A stretch of DNA of 64,000 nucleotides. Origin: Pocillopora verrucosa (lineage: Eukaryota > Cnidaria > Anthozoa > Scleractinia > Pocilloporidae). Where the stretch lies: contig NC_089321.1 in assembly GCF_036669915.1 (NCBI RefSeq), forward strand, positions 2,771,316 through 2,835,315, read 5' to 3'. Made by a program: the position numbers and the translations under genes. Under the pieces are notes generated by a model, which worked only from the letters and a program-made list of their open reading frames with translations, was not told the DNA's origin and searched no databases. Numbering within the stretch: the stretch's first letter is position 1; the number at the start of each line of letters is the position of its first letter. This document shows positions 9,101 to 47,512 of this stretch, in pieces.

Positions 9101-12100
9101 TCTGCCCTGAGAGAAGAAAATATGCGTTAGAAAAAAAAAAAAAGCTGCAAAGTTAGAGAAAACTGGATGAGGTGCGTAAGTAAATTATCTCTTATCTCTA
9201 ATTTGGGTAATACTACTGTGATGCATCGTGTTAGAATAATTCATTCCACTGCAGAAGGCTCTTTCATGCTTACACGATTACAATTGCACCAAAGCTAATC
9301 TTTCGAAATCCTCTTCTTGTAAGGAGACACCAGTTCCTAGGACCCATGTAAGAGCTTTACGTTTTCAATCCGCATCTAGTAAATGACAATGTTAACGAGA
9401 CAGTCGCCAAGGTTTCCACCCGTGAGAAGTATCCGACGGTGATTGAGTGCCAAATAATGTCTGCTTATCTGTTTATCTCGATGTGGCTTAGTCTTTGCAT
9501 GGATGTATATCTCTATCATATATCCTTGTTAGCTTTATCAATAATCAAAACTAATAAAGCTATGGCGGTATATGCTTGATTATACTATTAGATTAATGCA
9601 CCAAGATAGCTTACACAAGTCTGCTTTGATGCGATAAGAAACGAGGTTTTAAAACCGCAAAGGCTGCAGAAGTGACAATTTTTCTGGTATTTCTTTGCGC
9701 AGATCGCGCTGTCAAATAAAACAAAGGATAAAAAAGACCATTTTGAGGACATGCACGGGTAATTGAATCTGCTTCCATAGAAAATTGCACTAACACGCAA
9801 GGACCCACCCTTTGATTAACAGACTTCACTTGAAGCCTAATTGTGTATTTGGGTCAGAAATATACCAGTAGAAATGAAACTCGAATAATTTGCCTCATTT
9901 TGCCATAATTACCATTTCTCTACAGTCAGAGTAGTTACTAACAAGTTCCGATTTCAGTTAACCCTTTAGCTCCCATGAGTGACCAAGAGAGAATTTCTCC
10001 TTACAATATCAATACAATAGCACGCATAGAAGTGATGAGAATGAAGTAAAATATCAATTAGGGGATTATTAGTTGTTCCAATGCCAAATTCTCCAAATTT
10101 ACATCATAACAATCGTATGGTAGATAGTAAGGAGAATTACTGATAAGATCTTGGGAGTTAAAGAGTTAAGTGTTCTACGCGCGATTAACTCTCACTTTAG
10201 CACTTTCTTGGTCAACGACATTGTAAGTATTCAACCCTTTCTTCTCTCTTGACATTAATGTGTGATTCAGTGGCGATATTGTAAGGAGAAATTAGATGCT
10301 AGTCACTCTTGAGGGTTAAAGGATCAATACCATCCCAAAAGAAAATTTAGCCTCTGTTATCCACAAACAGGCTGGGCTGCTGATATCTTCTATATAAGTA
10401 AGAAAAAAAAAAAAGACTTTTCACATGTTTTTGGTCACAGTTCGTTTGGACCACACGATGACTATCCGGAAACACAGTTTACTGAATGGTGACAAAAGTT
10501 TTGTCTTCAGTTATCGCCCTGAACAACTTTGGAAAATAATTAAATTCCACCAAAACAGGAGACGGTGATATGATGCAGAAAACACATGAACAGTTCACAG
10601 TTAGTTTTATCTTTCTTGGACAGCAATTAACCCGAAATTTACCCTCACATTCCAAAGAGTTACTTCATCCCCTGTATTTAACCTTTCGAGAAATTTCTTT
10701 GTTGGTAATTCTAGCCATTAGTTGACAGCTCAATGACATTCACTAAAAGCAATAGAGTCTCTCTTTCTTCACAAATGTCAGCACCAAATTTAAAGTACTT
10801 TTACGATGTTCCCTTGTGAGGTTTAAATCACGATGGCTTTACCAGTAATTTATGAGGAGTTTTTCTTTTTTCCACAACAGTTCTAATCTGTACTCGACGC
10901 TAACTCGTCCTATCTTCACTTTTTTAAAAACCTTTTGAAAAACCATCATCTACTTAACACGTAATTCAAGTTTCCATTGGAGGCAGTCAGAGAGGTGGAG
11001 TGACTGAAACGTAGAAAAAAACCGACAAAAGGGAAAAGATCAATCATCAGCCTTCGGATTGGTGTGTCCTCTGTCTGGATCAATGATTTAAAGTTTCTTG
11101 GTGTGTCCTCTGTCTGGAAAACTTGATGGCAAACCTGTCTGCTTACGCACCGACGTGGATAAGACCCACTAAAATCTCAAAAGCTACATCGCAAACTCTA
11201 ACAAACGAAGAGTTTATTGGAAGTAAAAGGCGTCGGATAAACTGATGTAATATGTCAGAGCTTTCCTCTATAAATCCTGATGTGACAATCCTTGTGTCAT
11301 GAGTTTAGCTCGGGTTAAGACCTCAGTTAGCCGTTTATTTAACTTTCACCTATCTTTCTCGCCACAACAAATTAATTAATTTTAACCTTGCGTTGCCCGA
11401 CCAAGTACCATTTTAATTTTTCCAGCCTTCGCTGCAATTTCAGAAACAAAGCAGACAAAAAAAGATAACCTAATTCATTCTCGGTGTGTCGTCAAACCAG
11501 ACTGTCCTACTGCTTGGTTCAAAGAAACCCCACGAGGTTTGGCACGGAAACCAATGGCTAGCATTATAATCCAATAACGAGGATGTCTATGACTAAGAAA
11601 TCTCACCAACAAAATGTCTTTGATAATCGCGACAGAGTTTTAAAACAGAAAGACGCTAATGAGTTAGCGGCAATGACACCCCTATTATTATTATTTATCA
11701 TAACATCCCTGTGCTTTTTCTGTTTTTATTGTTCAAATTATGGAGTGAAAGCTTTCAAACCGTGCTGCAAAGTTGTTTTGATAAATAAGTGCCAGGAAAC
11801 GGCGGATAACGCGGTTCTCAAGCGCTTTAAATTGCGGAACTACATGACCGCAGAATGCTAATAAGGGCATCCGGCTGCACAGCCCAAATTCCTTGAAGAA
11901 TTAACTAAAATCAACGTCTCAAATAATTCCATTTTGCGGAATGACAGTTCACTCTAAACATATCATAGCAAGGATTAGGCGAACATCAAGAGACACGGCA
12001 CGTCCTTAAAAAGGCAATTAAAGTAAAGCAACATTGCTGCAACCTTACGGTGGACATAACGAAATAAAATGTCGAGAGGTTTAACAAAACTGCATTTCAT

Positions 12101-23496: not shown

Positions 23497-23707
23497 TTAA
23501 TCCTTTAAATCCTAAGAGTGATTAGCATCTAATTTCTCCCTACAATATCACCCCTGAATCACACATCAAGGTCATGAGAGTAAAGGAAATGATCACCAGG
23601 GAAGGATCCTTCTGATTGGCAAACAAATTCTCTCTGTCAGCACCTTAGGAATGTATAAAGAACAGTGTGGAGAATATGCATTCTGATGTTGGGGCGTTAA
23701 AGGTTAA
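23497..23707. mobile_element. TTAA-type MITE copy
   Basis: TTAA at both ends (23497-23500 and 23704-23707). The left end reads tcctttaaatcctaagagtg, and the interior shares the gattagcatctaatttctcc motif with the copy at 8523. The right end (ggggcgttaaaggttaa) is less similar to the left, so this is a diverged subfamily. Confidence 0.55.
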
Positions 23708-23936: not shown

Positions 23937-24170
23937 CTGTAACACTTTAACTCCCAAGATCTTATTAGTAATTCTCCTTACCGTCTGCCATACAGTTAAT
24001 GTGATACTTGTTTGGAGAATTTGGTATTGGATCAACTTATAATCCCCTCATTGAGGGGATTATAAGTTGATAGTTATTTTTCTATATTCTCATCACTTGT
24101 GTGGTTGATATTGTATTGATATTGTAAGGAGAAATTCTGTCTTGGTCACTCATGGGAGCTGAAGGGTTAA
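23937..24170. mobile_element. TTAA-type MITE copy with central palindrome
   Basis: The left end actttaactcccaagatctt and the right end catgggagctgaagggttaa are inverted copies. At 24031-24071 there is a perfect palindrome with 20-bp arms (atcaacttataatcccctca) around one base. This copy is the best in-window reference for the family and shows what the altered copy at 46524 should look like. Confidence 0.65.
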
Positions 24171-36400: not shown

Positions 36401-39400
36401 CTTTGCACTGGAATAGTTTAACCTCGAGGTCAAATCACTTAAGTTGGATCAGTTAATAAGCCTTGTCACAGACAAGGGCAGATTTATTTTGTGCGTGTCT
36501 GGTCTGTTTTGTTGAGAAAACGCGTTTAATGCGATTGTTGTTCTTTGTGGTGCCCCAGATAGCTCCATAATTTATTATCGGCTCCTGCAATAACCTTAAT
36601 TAAAGGCAATGCTTGAAGTACTTATATTATTAAACCTGACATTCTAACGCTATTTTAGTAACTATATGCCATTCCCTGGCCGAGTTGGTCGGCAATAAGA
36701 TACGCTGTCTTTTCATGATAAGCAAGTGTAAATTTATAAAATGACTTATATGACGCTTGAGTACCATCTCTAAGTAAAGGTTTGTGACCCCTATTCATGC
36801 AATTGTGTTTAACATACGCTGCCCTAATTTTCACTCATTTATAAATGTCAATAACTTTGCGAAGCGCTTGTCGACACTGTTCGCACGGACAATCTGTTTG
36901 GGAAACAATCACCTTCAGGTCGTTTAATATAAGGGGGCGAAAAAAGCTGTGATGCAAAGTGCACCGCCTCGAGGTTGCCAAATAATGGCGGCTTCTTCTC
37001 TGAAGCGGTAAATTACGATTCGTAATCCACAATAGATCACTTATATTGATCTCCGTTGGTTTTTGTTTATGGTAATTTTTAACACAATGTGTTTATCCGA
37101 CCGTCGTTTGACAATGAAGGACGATTTGGATGATTTTGAAAAAGGAAAAAAGCCGCCCACGGGAGAGAATACTGGTGCTTGATTGAAAATGAAAGCCCAG
37201 CAGACAACGAAAACAGGCCGTCTTATAGTAATTATCAGAGCCTTGAAAACCGCGAAAAGTGCATGTTTGGATACGCTAACACGCGTCCGCCTTAGTCTAA
37301 CCTTTGGAATAATTGAATTAAGATTACTCAACTATATATAAATATCGAAAGAGCAATGCTGAAGGTTATCGAGGACATTCGAGTTTTATCGTTTGTATTA
37401 CAAAGCATGTCTTACACTCTGCTGCCCTTCCGTTCGGATTAGCGTCGTAAAACCACAGATACATAGGGATTAGAAAAATCGTTTAGTTTAAGTTATGCAA
37501 ACAGCATTAGTGGTAAGAAAATCTGTAAGACGCTGGCCAACACGAGCGCCAGAAAAGGGCAACATATAGTTTAACGAAGGTGTTGTCTGAGATTCTGAAT
37601 CATTGATACGTATATGAGAGTTTGAATAATTCACTTTCTGAAATTAAGTGATTATGGAGGCTTTCATTTATATTCTACATATTGAAAATGGTGAAAGTTT
37701 GCCTTTCGTCGGAAACATCAAAGAAATAACTGGAATTGATTGCCTGGAAACAATTATCGAATTTAGCGTCAGGGTTTGCAATGAGTTCTCGTAGAAATTT
37801 TTTATTCCAATGAATAAAAGGAGTATCAATTTTTTTCATGATTACGTATCCAATTAGAAAAGTCCACATTAAAAGTTTTAAGATCTTTTAAATTGTATTC
37901 ACAGTTCGTGAAATTGCAAATCCCACCAAAAATTGATTGCTATTTTTTTCTGGCTGCTTTGCACCTAGCCACCAGAAAATATTCGTCTGATTGCAAGTTT
38001 GTTTGTAACATAAGACAACTTACTGCAACTAGTTAGCCCGCAGCTAATGTTTTCTTTTTTCTTTTGCGCTTAAACAAAAGGAAGATGGCCAGAAATGGCT
38101 AAGAAGTATAAAGAACACTCCGTAGCTCACGCTAGTTGTTTAATTTAAGATCTCTGATCTGAAGGTTTTTTTTATTATCAGAATAGTTTATGAAAAGGGA
38201 AACTGAAATGATTTGGAAGGAGCAATCAGTAGTAAAAGCAATTTACTTCCTTATTTGCAGTTTTCTTTCACACTCGTTCCTCAACTTAAAAGAGAAGCAT
38301 ACGCATAACTGCGATGTATTGTTGAGTCAAATTCGTCATGCCTTAACACAATACTCATGTATCGTGAATACAGATTTAAAATCAATAATCTTTCTGTTCT
38401 TCCACCATCAGAATAGTTTATGAAAAGGGATACTGAAGTGATTTAGAAGGAACAATCTGTAGTAAAAGCAATTCACTTCCTTCTTTGCAGTTTTATTTTT
38501 CACATTCGTTCCTTGACTTTAAAAAGTAGCGTACGCATCATCTCGACGTATTGTTGAGTTAAACTCGTCATGCCTTAACACGATACGCAGGTCACTCGTA
38601 CTTATGAAATGTTTTCGAGCGTAAAATCTCAAGGATCAATTGACACCCTAGGAAGTATCAAGTCCCAGAAAAAAAAGGAAAAGGCATTTTTCCTTATTTC
38701 TAGTTTTGTTATATTAATTTCCAAAAACTCCTAGCGATAAGAGGATTTACATGTGGGGTATCCAGTTGCATTTCCCATTAAAAAAAAAAAATTGAGAATT
38801 TTATACTTTAATTTCTTAGTTTAAAAGTTTTTATTTACAAGAAAATATATATTAAAGTGCAATGTTTATCCACTGTATTACTTTTTTAATATTCTGGATG
38901 AAATGAACTAAATAAAATAGTAAACATTTGTAGAAAACACCAACATGTGATTATCAGCGCCGGAGGGGCGTTTTAGAGACAGTTACCTGATCTGTTCTCG
39001 TTACTACTTGTTATTACTTGTTTGAAGTTATTGAAAAAGGGACTCACAAATAGCGTAAATTTTACAAATATAATCACAAGAACGTCTCAAAATAAATCTC
39101 TCGGTGCAATAATTGGTTTTTGCTTCATTTAACTTGACAAGGAAAATCAAAAGAAAAACAATGTACGAGATCCGTTTCCGGCGACAAAAAGTCCTGAGAT
39201 TGCAGCCGGCTGTTATCAGGCAAAGTCGTAATTCAATGTTCTTCTGTGTTGGAAAATAGAACATCTTTAAGAAAAGTACAAACAAAGAATAAACAAAAAA
39301 AGAGAAAGCCTTAAAAAGGTGGAATTCCCCCGGCGCCAAAAAGACTGAGTGCTTTGTTCAAACAACCGGAACATTACATCTTTTCCTATTCAAAATGGTT

Positions 39401-43092: not shown

Positions 43093-43819
43093 GGTGATTC
43101 TGTTAGAACAAATTAGATAAAGTCGCTCATGGAGGTCAACCCTTTACGCCCTAACATCAGAATGCATATTCTCCAGACTGTTTTCTATACATCTCCTAAG
43201 GTGCTGATAAGGAGAATTTGTTCAACAACAGGAGCCCATTACTCCTGTTCAACAATCAAGAGCCTGTTTAGTTGGTGATCATTTCTTTTATTCTCGTGTA
43301 AATTAAAGCTCTCTTTGTTGAAAAAAGGCTCAGTATATGCATTTATAAGAATCTTAATGCAGAAAAATTTTCGGTGACTCTTTCAGTTTCTCCTCGTTGA
43401 TTCTTTTTATGATTTTCCTGAGCGACAATGCAACGATAGAAAAAAATTCAGGCCTGTAAGGGATTTGCGGCATTTGCAATATCTTTTCTTAATCCGCGTT
43501 GACATATAATATTTTTATAAATTCACAGTCATTTATTGTAGAAGCGTCGATCGATATGGTCAATATTGAGACGAACACTCACTGAAGTCTTACTCAGTTA
43601 CCTCAGATACCACACAGCCGTCATTATGTAGTGGGTTATTTAACTGCCACTTGCAAAGTTGGAGGAAAATTCTGTAATAGCTTCTGAAATAGTGTAAAAA
43701 CAGAGCACTGTCAAAAAACTAATTCACGACTTAGATAAGTGTCTAAACTCTCAGTATCTCCTTCTGAAACTGATCACCGTGAGCATTTTCGATCAAGAGC
43801 TAAGAGCGTAGAGGAGACT

Positions 43820-43844: not shown

Positions 43845-43886
<42 letters not shown>

Positions 43887-46800
43887 AGAGGGAGAGAGAG
43901 AGAGGGAGAGAGGGGAGGAGAGGGGGGGGAGAGAGGGAGAGAGAGAGATAAAAAATAAAAATCAAGGAAAAGAATGAACCATACATGTAGGCGATAAACA
44001 ACCTGCAGTTGTTTAGTTTCCTTCTTAACCGGTTGCGTCACGTAACGCTCTTCGACAGTGGCGTGACGACTCTGCTTGTTCATTTCCAGGTTCCTCATTC
44101 CTATATTCCTTATGGAGGAAGAAGATCTGGCTTTTATTCTTCCAAAGTCGTAGATACGTTACCCTGCATTTACGAACTGGTTCCCATAGCATTGGAATCT
44201 GTAAGATCTTACCCGGTGTGTCCTGGCTTTGTATTTACCACAGCTGACTATGGCTGTGCTGATGGAGGGACCTCGATGTCGCTTATTTATGCGTGTGTTG
44301 AAGAGCTCAGAAAGTTGCATGGCAATGAGCTGGAAATCCTTGTTTATTACGAGGATCAGCCGGTTAATGACTTCACTTCCCTTTTTTCATACGTCCAAGG
44401 TATTTGCTTTGTTTAATATTATTTAAAGCTTATCTTAAATATGTCCAAACGAGCTCCATTTTCGCAAGAACAGAGATAAATAGTTGTTCCCAGTTTATAT
44501 GACAAGAAAAAAAAGTGTTTCTTTCGCTCTGACGAAGGGCTAACGCTGGAGCCGTCAGCTTTACAAACTCTTTACGGTGTCCAATTTACGCTATCAACTC
44601 CGTTGATACCAAATTACCTAGTTACACTCTCCCAGCGACGCAGTACCCAGCTTCTTTAGAAACTTACCCCCTTTATTCATATGTTGCTTTGAAATATCTT
44701 TTTTCCATTCATCATTGTTTCAACACTGACATTCACACAAGAAACCTTAAAAGATTTTTAAACTTAAACTCTGTCGTACCTCTCTTGCCTTTTGATTTTT
44801 CCTGGCGCATTGTCTCTCCTTTCTCTGTTTCTTTTTATTTTTTCGTTATTTTCTTCCTTTTTTCTTTTGCTTAGGCCTTATCTCAGGACCTCAGAGTTAT
44901 TTGACCTCATTTCCAAACGTTTACGTGGCAGCGAGTGAGACTCAGTTTTACAAACAGTGTTTCCCTCGTGGTTCAATACAACTCGGTTTGTTCAGCGTGG
45001 CCCTTCATTGGCTGAGCAAAAAACCATGCAGCGTAACTGGAGGTCTACTTTGTCTCCAGTCCCAAAACCAGGAGGAGAGGGAACTTTTTACAAGACAGGC
45101 AGCAATGGATTGGGAAACGTTCCTTCTAGCTAGAGCAAAGGAATTGTCATTAGGTATGTAGCAGCCTATTCAGCTGGCGTGTGTTGAAGCTGCCGGTGAG
45201 CAAATGAAGCCGATGGAGCTGCGAGTCATTGGCTGTTTTTGGAATTGGGAAACTTCACGCTTACAATGAATGGACCCATTCTTTCCTTTGGAGGAGGTAG
45301 GTAGCTTAAAATCCTGACAAATTAAGTGTATTATGAGTTACATGAAAGCAACTACTTTTCTTCGGATCTTTACATCGTGTTCAGTGCACACAGCGATTAA
45401 ATTTCTGTGGCATCTTAACTCTGTGTTAGGGAGAGGCATGATTAATATTATGAGGGAGGGCAAAATAAGAAGAGAGATGGAGAGATCTTTCCCTTCCTTC
45501 GTTGTAACTGATAAACAATAAACCTTTCTTAGCCTTGGCAGTTTTAGCTGTGGATGACGATGGACACTTTACTGGAGACACAAAGAACACGAAATTCTCC
45601 TTTTCCCAAATAATGTACGATGTGTGGAAGAGCTTGGCAGAGGATTATCTAATCAGTGTGTTAAGATTAAAAAAAGAAACAAAGAAAAGAAAAAGTAAAA
45701 CTGCTCTCAGAAGTTATGGCTGCTGGCGTTTATATCCTGTGTATGAGACTTGAAGTATTTTCATTTCTCTTACAAGTATATCAATGGTCAATTAAGCCCC
45801 AAAATTGGTATCAAAACAGCTCCATGGGTAAATTGGCTCCAGAGCTAAGACAAACTTCATTTTACAGTGAATTAGATACGACATTAGTCCATCGCAGGCA
45901 GCCCCTATCATTTCCTTTGGTTAATCCTGGGGACATGAACCCGCACTTTTTGACATGGAGTTAAGTGCTTCTCTCGATTACGATGATTTGACTCACAACG
46001 AAGACCTATAAGAAAATTGAAATGAAGACCACCACTCTTGGTTCCGTATCCATACCGTTTCTAATCGTGGTTTATCTGTTTTTGCATTCATTATCCTCTT
46101 GATTATTTGACAATCTGGATAATGCTTAGATGGTGTTAAAAGAATTCGAAGACAAGAAAGGAACGGAATGAAATAACAACAGGAGGAATAATTTAAGGAA
46201 TTAATTGAATATAAAGAACATACATGACAAAACTGATTAGTAAAAATGAGTACCAAATGTCACAATGTCTTCACAGGATGAGGTTAATAAGATCACGCTT
46301 CTTAGTTACATGCGGACACGACAAGAGCTGCAGTCGCCATTTATGTCAGCGGAGAGTCCTGTGAGGAGGGTCGGACTGTCACTTGTGTTACTAGATATCA
46401 AAACATTTCCTTGTCCTATACAAAAATGCGCCTAGAGATTGGAGACACAGAGAAGGTTGCAAAATCATTAACGGAAGAAACGCGTGCTTGGGGCAACTTC
46501 ACCTTCTTGTCAGGTGTGTCGGCAGTAACTCTTTCACTCTCAAGATCTCATTAGTAATTCTCCTTATTGTCTTTCAATAAGTTCCGAAGAATTTTCCATT
46601 GGATCAACAAATAATCCCCTTATTGATAATTCCTTTATTCTCATAACTTCCTTCTTAACCGGTTTCGTCACGCAACGCTCTTCGACAGTGGCGTGACGAC
46701 TCTGCTTGTTCATTTCCAGGTTCCTCATTCATATATTCCTTATGGAGGAAGAAGATCTGGCTTTTATTCTTCCAAAGTCGTAGATACGTTACCCTGCATT

Positions 46801-47512
46801 AACGAACTGGTTCCCATAGCATTGGAATCTGTAAGATCTTACCCGGTGTGTCCTGGCTTTGTATTTACCACTGCTGACTATGGCTGTGCTGTTTTTGTTG
46901 TTAGGAGAAATTCTGTCTTGGTCACTCATAAGAGTTAAAAGTCTAAGGTTGCTTACCAAATGTCGGAACTAATAGACCAGATTAGTCAGAATAAAAGTGA
47001 ATAATTAAAAGCAGAATTTTCCTTTTTCAACGACACGTTATCTTCAATTGTTATTATTTCATTTATTATCTTCTTAATAATTTTAAAATTACTGGTTTTT
47101 TGTGGCTAGGAATTTATCCGGCACAAGTGACAGAAGAGTCATGAGAATATAAAATCTGCGTATTTTTTATTTTTTGAGAGTATCAAGGCTCGAGCTTTGA
47201 TTGAATATTGAATGCAATAATGGCCAATAATGGATCCCACTGAAGAACTGACTCACCTATTCAGCCGCGTAGACTGTATTTCTTAAAGCAGTCTAACGTT
47301 ACCATCTGCTCCTGTACATCCTGCAAGGCAAGCTGAAGAAAGTATTATTAGCATCTTTTTGGTACTCAGGTCTCTCCGATGAGCGAACAGTGGAAGAGAA
47401 AACCACAATTGTCGATGAATTTTTCCTCCATTTGGAAGCAGAATTTGCAAGAGTGATGCACGATTACAGATCCGAGCTTGTCGCTGCAATCATGAAAGTG
47501 GAAAAGAATTGA
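43820..47512 (+). CDS. SABATH-type SAM-dependent carboxyl methyltransferase (frameshifted as assembled)
   Basis: Exons: probable start 43820-43834 (MSAKK), 44090-44399, 44875-45153, 45533-45657, 46277-46513 and 47370-47512. The product would be about 369 residues, the usual SABATH length, if one base missing in exon 5 is allowed for. Signatures: VPHSYIPYGGRRSGFYSS at the N-terminus (substrate-clamp region), TADYGCADGGTSMSL (SAM motif I), LEILVYYEDQPVNDF, SLHW-like VALHWLSKKP, MDWETFLLARAKEL, then LAVDDDG, SYMRTRQELQSPF, SPVRRVGLSL, TRAWGNFTFLSG-LSDERTVEEK and a terminal MKVEKN. SABATH enzymes methylate carboxyl groups of small acids in plants; relatives occur in some cnidarians and other invertebrates, with unknown substrates. 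Exon 3 to exon 4 gives LSLG-ALAVLAVDDDG, a few residues shorter than the usual GG-containing loop. Exon 5 stops at TAG (46433-46435) in frame and needs a one-base shift near 46421-46425 to read on. An AATAAA lies at 47539. Confidence 0.82.
43848..43949 (+). repeat. GA microsatellite
   Basis: About 100 bases of (GA)n broken by G-runs, inside the putative first intron of the methyltransferase gene. Open frames over it (RERERE or LSLSLS) are artefacts. Confidence 0.9.
44090..44399 (+). CDS. Methyltransferase exon 2 with SAM-binding motif I
   Basis: Acceptor cttgttcatttccag, donor gtattt, phase 0 in and phase 1 out, 103 codons. It contains the N-terminal substrate-clamp segment and motif I (ADYGCADGG). 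It is the source of the captured copy at 46648-46891, which matches it and its acceptor at all but five of 244 positions. Confidence 0.85.
44520..44672 (+). mobile_element. Penelope-like terminal fragment, degenerate hammerhead core
   Basis: ctctgacgaagggctaacgct matches the 27.95-kb copy, but the GAAA box is changed to GGAG here, so the core should be inactive. It continues into aaactctttacggtg and ends with the inverse of the gggggtaagttt segment. It lies in a methyltransferase intron. Confidence 0.45.
46277..46513 (+). pseudogene. Methyltransferase exon 5 with one-base frameshift
   Basis: Frame 1 reads DEVNKITLLSYMRTRQELQSPF...VGLSLVLLDIKTFPCPIQKCA and then TAG. A second frame, overlapping the run of five A at 46421-46425, reads KMRLEIGDTEKVAKSLTEETRAWGNFTFLS up to the donor. 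Both halves match the family in order. The exon is 237 bases and needs one more base to meet the last exon in phase 1. The cause is either a real one-base loss in a homopolymer, which makes the gene a young pseudogene, or a sequencing error. Confidence 0.65.
46524..46941. mobile_element. TTAA-type MITE carrying a captured methyltransferase exon
   Basis: The left part (46524 to about 46647: ctctcaagatctcattagta, aattctccttattgtc, ggatcaac, aataatcccctt, tattctcata) and the right part (46892-46941: ttgttaggagaaattctgtc, ttggtcactca, agagttaaaa) match the MITE copy at 23937-24170 in order. The roughly 25 bases that should lie between them are replaced by 46648-46891, a copy of 44018-44261 (intron end, splice acceptor and first part of exon 2). 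I count five differences in 244 bases. The capture ends in the middle of SAM motif I. Confidence 0.8.

Follow-up and report, generated by a model that had tools for sequence, protein, structure and literature searches.

Animal genomes contain transposable elements (TEs) in which unrelated DNA lies between the two parts of a single element with terminal inverted repeats (TIRs). A survey of 100 animal genomes reported 370 such Pack-TIRs, only four of them multicopy (1.4%), and 323 of the 370 cases are hAT or TcMariner elements (Tan et al., 2021; Nat Commun 12:4280, PMC8277862). Of the unique Pack-TIRs in that survey, 160 of 281 (56.9%) lie within 15 kb of the parent sequence, the majority of those at less than 5 kb; microhomology (median 2 bp) occurs at one or both breakpoints in 67.6%, the median gap is 4.6% of the TE, and the TE copies have a median divergence of 18.3%. 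The main text of that paper does not contain the words cnidaria, coral, MITE or piggyBac. Here we describe a miniature inverted-repeat transposable element (MITE) of the coral Pocillopora verrucosa that lies within a carboxyl methyltransferase gene and holds a copy of an exon fragment of that same gene. The locus is part of a stretch of 64,000 nucleotides (NC_089321.1, positions 2,771,316 to 2,835,315, forward strand; hereafter the window), on which an earlier note, made from the letters alone, had remarked that such captures are known mainly from plants and that a donor only 2.6 kb away is unusual. Given the figures of the animal survey, both remarks are overstated.

Several other described systems bear comparison. 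Pack-TYPE transposons of plants (PMC8903248) are likewise TIR elements carrying gene fragments and are reported to be capable of shuffling coding DNA genome-wide, whereas the coral element is single-copy with mutated target site duplications (TSDs); the Pack-TYPE trait of more than one copy with the captured fragment was not seen in a genome search in which the whole-element query had 40 of 1034 candidates scored. The CMITE elements of Acropora (Wang et al., 2010; PMC2872659) resemble it as coral MITEs with TTAA TSDs, TIRs mostly of the CCCTTT type and ties to piggyBac-like transposons, but they are only about 100 bp long and share a conserved internal region, whereas the present family measures 212 bp with its TSDs and has the TIR CCCTTTAACTCCCA. 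Within the window, the conserved internal 60-mer of CMITE gave chance matches only (lowest E 1.3). Turmoil-1 transduplication in C. elegans (PMC2572040) also places coding fragments inside an animal TIR element, but a different one, with the fragments residing in its inverted terminal repeats. In a sample of the literature on transduplication and gene capture in cnidarians, titles and the openings of abstracts announced no such case, which is weak evidence of absence; the word transduplication does appear twice in the CMITE paper (PMC2872659). The event described here belongs to a class already known in animals, the single-copy Pack-TIRs, with which it shares a nearby unique parent, breakpoints inside the TE, the loss of a small part of the TE and a single copy; its particular features are the anthozoan host, the TTAA/piggyBac-type MITE, the location of donor and acceptor site in one gene, and a filler that includes a splice acceptor.

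The chimeric element, including its TSDs, spans 46525–46946. The parts of this mosaic, its donor and two copies of the same MITE family used for comparison are as follows.

46525 to 46528, forward strand: left TSD, GTAA, a mutated TTAA (alignment with 30 family copies)
46529 to 46647, forward strand: left MITE part, the TIR CTCTTTCACTCTCA followed by subterminal sequence
46648 to 46891, forward strand: filler, a copy of 44018–44261 (72 bp of intron end and 172 bp of exon 2)
46892 to 46942, forward strand: right MITE part, the first bases at the junction being ambiguous (BLAST match from 46898)
46943 to 46946, forward strand: right TSD, CTAA, a mutated TTAA (family alignment)
44018 to 44261, forward strand: donor of the filler (ungapped alignment and genome search)
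23937 to 24170, forward strand: filler-free copy of the MITE family (alignment)
9958 to 10168, reverse strand: filler-free copy of the MITE family (alignment)

Comparison of the window with itself revealed that 46648–46891 is a direct, ungapped repeat of 44018–44261, with 239 of 244 positions identical and mismatches at the donor/copy pairs 44035/46665, 44043/46673, 44101/46731, 44171/46801 and 44242/46872. This pair is the top alignment among the eight listed by dust-masked self-BLAST of the window (E ≤ 1e-10). The donor lies 2.6 kb upstream of the copy, in the same gene and the same orientation, and the captured part of exon 2 comprises the first 172 of its 310 bases. Because the filler retains 72 bp of intron, it is not a retrocopy. 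On both sides of the filler, 46525–46647 and 46898–46941 match the MITE copies at 10168–9958 (reverse strand) and 23937–24170 (forward strand). These alignments bear out the earlier note in its description of a TTAA-type MITE whose center is a 244-bp copy with five differences, holding the intron end, the acceptor and the first half of exon 2 in the orientation of the gene, within the donor's own gene. The element it placed at 46524–46941 was thus correctly recognized, with boundaries that are better drawn as given above; the exon part of the copy begins at 46720 rather than at 46722.

A search of the 353.4-Mb assembly containing the window (52 contigs) returned 63 matches to the whole element, with 40 of 1034 candidates scored: the element itself, the donor, 39 matches to the left part (72–81% identity) and 22 to the right part. 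The resulting count of at least 39 other places for the MITE is a lower bound, as the two window copies are absent from the list. The filler portion of this query matched only itself and the donor. A query with the donor region, for which all four candidates were scored, recovered the donor and the copy as well as two paralogues of partial length (75% and 68%), both starting near the end of the filler. As the donor and the copy are the sole places found for the captured stretch, the donor is unambiguous. The earlier note had proposed aligning the element to genomic MITE copies and looking for further copies carrying the exon; the flanks do align, and neither the whole-element query, with 40 of 1034 candidates scored, nor the donor-region query found a second chimera.

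The family alignment comprises 31 elements, namely 28 genome copies, the two window copies and the present element minus its filler. Its consensus is 212 bp long including TTAA on both sides, and its ends, CCCTTTAACTCCCA and TGGGAGTTAAAGGG, form a perfect 14-bp inverted repeat of the CC[C/T]T type. TTAA target sites and CC[C/T]T ends are hallmarks of piggyBac elements (Wang et al., 2010; PMC2872659), and on these sequence features the element is a piggyBac/TTAA-type MITE. TTAA is retained on both sides in 20 of the 30 other copies, and both TSDs of this element are mutated. An insertion longer than 20 bp occurs in none of the 30 other aligned copies.

The architecture also agrees with four of five points in the definition of a Pack-TIR. 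Where that definition asks for 100–5000 bp of non-TE sequence between two parts of one TIR element, there are 244 bp here; each flanking TIR has to extend over at least 10 bp of the element's end, and both parts align up to the TSDs, with mismatches at 7 of 28 TIR positions. The unique parent, for which at least 90% identity and a length ratio of 80–120% are required, is 98% identical without gaps, and the insert is not a retrocopy. The parent should have no TE within 100 bp, and no copy of this MITE family, the only family screened, lies near 44018–44261.

The same locus is represented in protein clusters derived from other contigs in ENA. A 102-residue frame spanning the right junction retrieved six proteins. 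The chimeric junction (DYGCA/VFVVRRNSVLVTHKS) is present in two of these clusters, P0035 (two member sequences), with 64 identical residues, and P0037 (five), which continues into the intron flank outside the MITE; the longest contigs behind these two clusters measure 3231 and 696 bases, and both clusters carry variants of their own. Three others, P0034, P0036 and P0039 (51, 3 and 1 members), are donor-type clusters of the gene, with apparent damage in P0036 and P0039; the sixth protein, P0038, represents a more distant homologue. A second query, consisting of exon 5 and the first MITE codons, retrieved four proteins, of which P0040, P0041 and P0043 (85, 3 and 1 members) clearly continue past exon 5 into this MITE end and P0042 (16 members) reads only to the TSD; none of the four reads an empty site. 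Three clusters, totaling 89 member sequences, thus show the left end of the MITE at this site and end before the filler. An artefact of a single assembly therefore does not account for the right junction, and other samples share the MITE site. Because the chimeric frame of the window has no ATG, gene callers may miss the chimera. A reading of polymorphism from the member counts (7 chimeric against 55 donor-type) was rejected for this reason.

At 44171 the donor exon of the window encodes Tyr, and Asn is found in the window copy as well as in P0034, P0036 and P0020. Given the Asn in P0034 and P0036, one of the five differences is probably a change on the donor side, and to judge from these sequences the donor allele of the assembly seems derived at this position.

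We consider it probable that a break within an immobile MITE was repaired from nearby sequence, making the chimera a single-copy Pack-TIR formed by gap filling. In such a scheme, a piggyBac/TTAA-type MITE would have inserted into intron 5 of the methyltransferase gene, where it then decayed. A later break or stalled fork, about two thirds of the way along the MITE, would have led to repair in which 244 bp around the exon 2 acceptor, 2.6 kb upstream on the same chromosome, were copied, presumably by synthesis-dependent strand annealing or template switching. The strand would then have been rejoined to the other side of the MITE with the loss of 17 MITE bases. This account is favored by its match to the single-copy Pack-TIRs of Tan et al., which display the same bias toward parents in cis, internal breakpoints, small gaps and diverged TE copies. 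At the filler, 17 of the 212 consensus bases are missing (8% of the length), at 66–74% of the element. At the left junction, MITE and donor have 2 bp in common, a level reached by 18% of random placements, and microhomology was discarded as support for template switching after it tested as not significant.

The mutated TSDs and the divergence of the MITE parts suggest that the MITE is older than its filler, although much of this divergence is shared family variation. Two of the eight TSD bases are mutated (P = 0.011 under the filler's divergence of 5/244). Relative to the consensus, the MITE parts carry differences at 29 of 178 positions, a higher count than in any other of the 31 aligned elements, compared with 5 of 244 in the filler (P = 9e-8), and the nearest of the 30 aligned copies differs from the element at 29 of 175 positions. 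When the 11 widely shared differences are left out, the contrast is 18/178 versus 5/244 (P = 0.0004). In the TIRs, 7 of 28 positions depart from the consensus. Dating by total divergence, together with a terminal-branch estimate of 0.20 from three copies, was weakened by the count of shared variants.

Several observations weigh against this order of events and the repair account. Of the 29 differences, 11 recur in at least four of the 30 other copies, 13 in one to three, and only 5 are private; judged by the private differences alone (5/178), the MITE bears no sign of greater age (P = 0.75). The three differences in the left TIR are common variants (found in 4, 10 and 8 of 30 copies), and the P of 1e-6 for all seven TIR differences is therefore an overstatement. 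Furthermore, the 28 genome copies were chosen by their similarity to this element, which biases the consensus in its favor. If donor and copy have undergone gene conversion, the filler would seem younger than its true age. The earlier note's inference of a recent event, which rests on the divergence of about 2%, is therefore overstated, as conversion between copies 2.6 kb apart could depress that figure. In this connection, the residues MAF are shared by the donor-type P0039 and the chimeric P0037, where the window has IAL in donor and copy alike, a hint of either gene conversion or a misassembled 696-base contig. The microhomology is slight, with the 2 bp on the left accompanied by an ambiguous 0–2 bp on the right. 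Finally, a filler-free allele of this MITE was not observed.

The strongest alternative, which we nevertheless regard as unlikely, is capture dependent on transposition, in which an active MITE took up the fragment, through abortive gap repair at excision or fork switching, and the chimera either stayed or inserted here. The chimera is indeed bounded by TTAA-like TSDs and both TIRs, fork switching coupled with transposition is what Tan et al. (PMC8277862) propose for multicopy Pack-TIRs, and if the element is dated by private differences alone, the MITE need not predate its filler. However, both TSDs are mutated although the filler is 98% identical to its donor, and no second copy appeared among the candidates scored in the genome (40 of 1034 for the whole element, all four for the donor region). 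The breakpoints are internal with 17 bp lost, and repair after excision should remove more (Tan et al., PMC8277862). The earlier description of a MITE that "has captured" an exon suggests an active element; the mutations in both TSDs and the lack of a second chimera in these two queries agree better with repair within a dead one.

A local tandem duplication of 2.63 kb that broke within the MITE, and whose second copy was afterwards largely deleted, would yield the identical order of parts with donor and copy in direct orientation. Such a history is nonetheless quite improbable, in that it needs two events, the deletion would have to end no more than about 17 bp from the point in the MITE at which the duplication broke, and the self-comparison of the window reveals no further repeat of 44262–46647.

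A further alternative concerns the gene itself. Its exons encode the carboxyl methyltransferase domain PF03492 (E 7.3e-23), and its named close homologues are from the anthozoans Oculina, Desmophyllum, Actinia, Orbicella and Nematostella. Exon numbering assumes one upstream exon, to judge from the homologues; exon 1 was not found. The exons and the copied splice site are as follows.

44090 to 44399, forward strand: exon 2, carboxyl methyltransferase (PF03492)
44875 to 45153, forward strand: exon 3 (homologue comparison)
45533 to 45657, forward strand: exon 4, its end placed from phase and homologues
46277 to 46513, forward strand: exon 5 (comparison with P0001, P0002 and P0005), with the splice donor GTGTGT at 46514
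46718 to 46719, forward strand: copied splice acceptor AG (44044–44100 equals 46674–46730)
47370 to 47512, forward strand: last exon including the stop codon (homologue comparison)

The element is located inside intron 5 (46514–47369), its TSD starting 11 bp past the exon 5 splice donor. From −46 to +11 around the copied acceptor, a span of 46 intron bases and 11 exon bases, the sequence is the same as at the native site. Exon 5 ends in phase 1 by homologue comparison and exon 2 starts in phase 0, and a trapped copy would therefore shift the frame. It is predicted to meet a stop after 27 codons (computed with exon 4, which has the same phase as exon 5). An AATAAA occurs in the intron at 46990, 99 bp beyond the filler.

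These features could be taken to indicate that the chimera serves as an alternative terminal or poison exon regulating the gene, the copied acceptor and the intronic poly(A)-like signal truncating the methyltransferase while concerted evolution with the native exon, as the MAF residues of P0037 and P0039 might suggest, keeps the copy in step. We find this proposal highly improbable, despite the unchanged acceptor region; the start of P0035 is unlike the window copy, which suggests an indel in the copy. As judged from sequence, the filler needs no function as its explanation, and it is expected to be removed together with the rest of intron 5, at some risk of exon trapping. The least probable account is an assembly artefact or haplotype chimera, a doubt the earlier note had itself raised: a difference of 2% is within the possible allelic variation of an outbred marine animal, but the chimeric right junction is present in two ENA clusters with their own variants (seven member sequences, from other contigs), and an artefact is therefore unlikely.

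Some further observations were made along the window. Exon 5 of this assembly has a frameshift near 46416–46426; P0040 (85 member sequences) reads through this region, P0042 and P0043 are broken differently, and the frameshift may stem from decay of this allele or from an error in the sequence. About 100 bp of GA-rich purine sequence (43851–43948) ends 70 bp upstream of the donor stretch and could stall forks or form non-B DNA; nothing links the tract to the event. In the MITE copy at 23937–24170, a 20-bp insertion is an inverted copy of its own adjacent sequence, and 24031–24071 forms a 41-bp palindrome (97.6%), as hairpin template switching would give. A 24-mer from the MITE end had no matches in viral contigs or in genome contigs. 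Elsewhere, 38177–38592 contains a near-adjacent pair of direct repeats of about 185 bp (85% identity), 2672–2918 contains another such pair, with copies of 117 bp (74% identity), and 23622–23705 and 43138–43222 form an inverted pair of about 85 bp (88% identical) that is probably another dispersed repeat.

The locus thus appears to offer a clean anthozoan example of exon duplication driven by repair, and its junction is represented in several contigs. It may serve as a natural marker for the rate of conversion between donor and copy, and for the splicing of an exon that has an acceptor but lacks its native donor.

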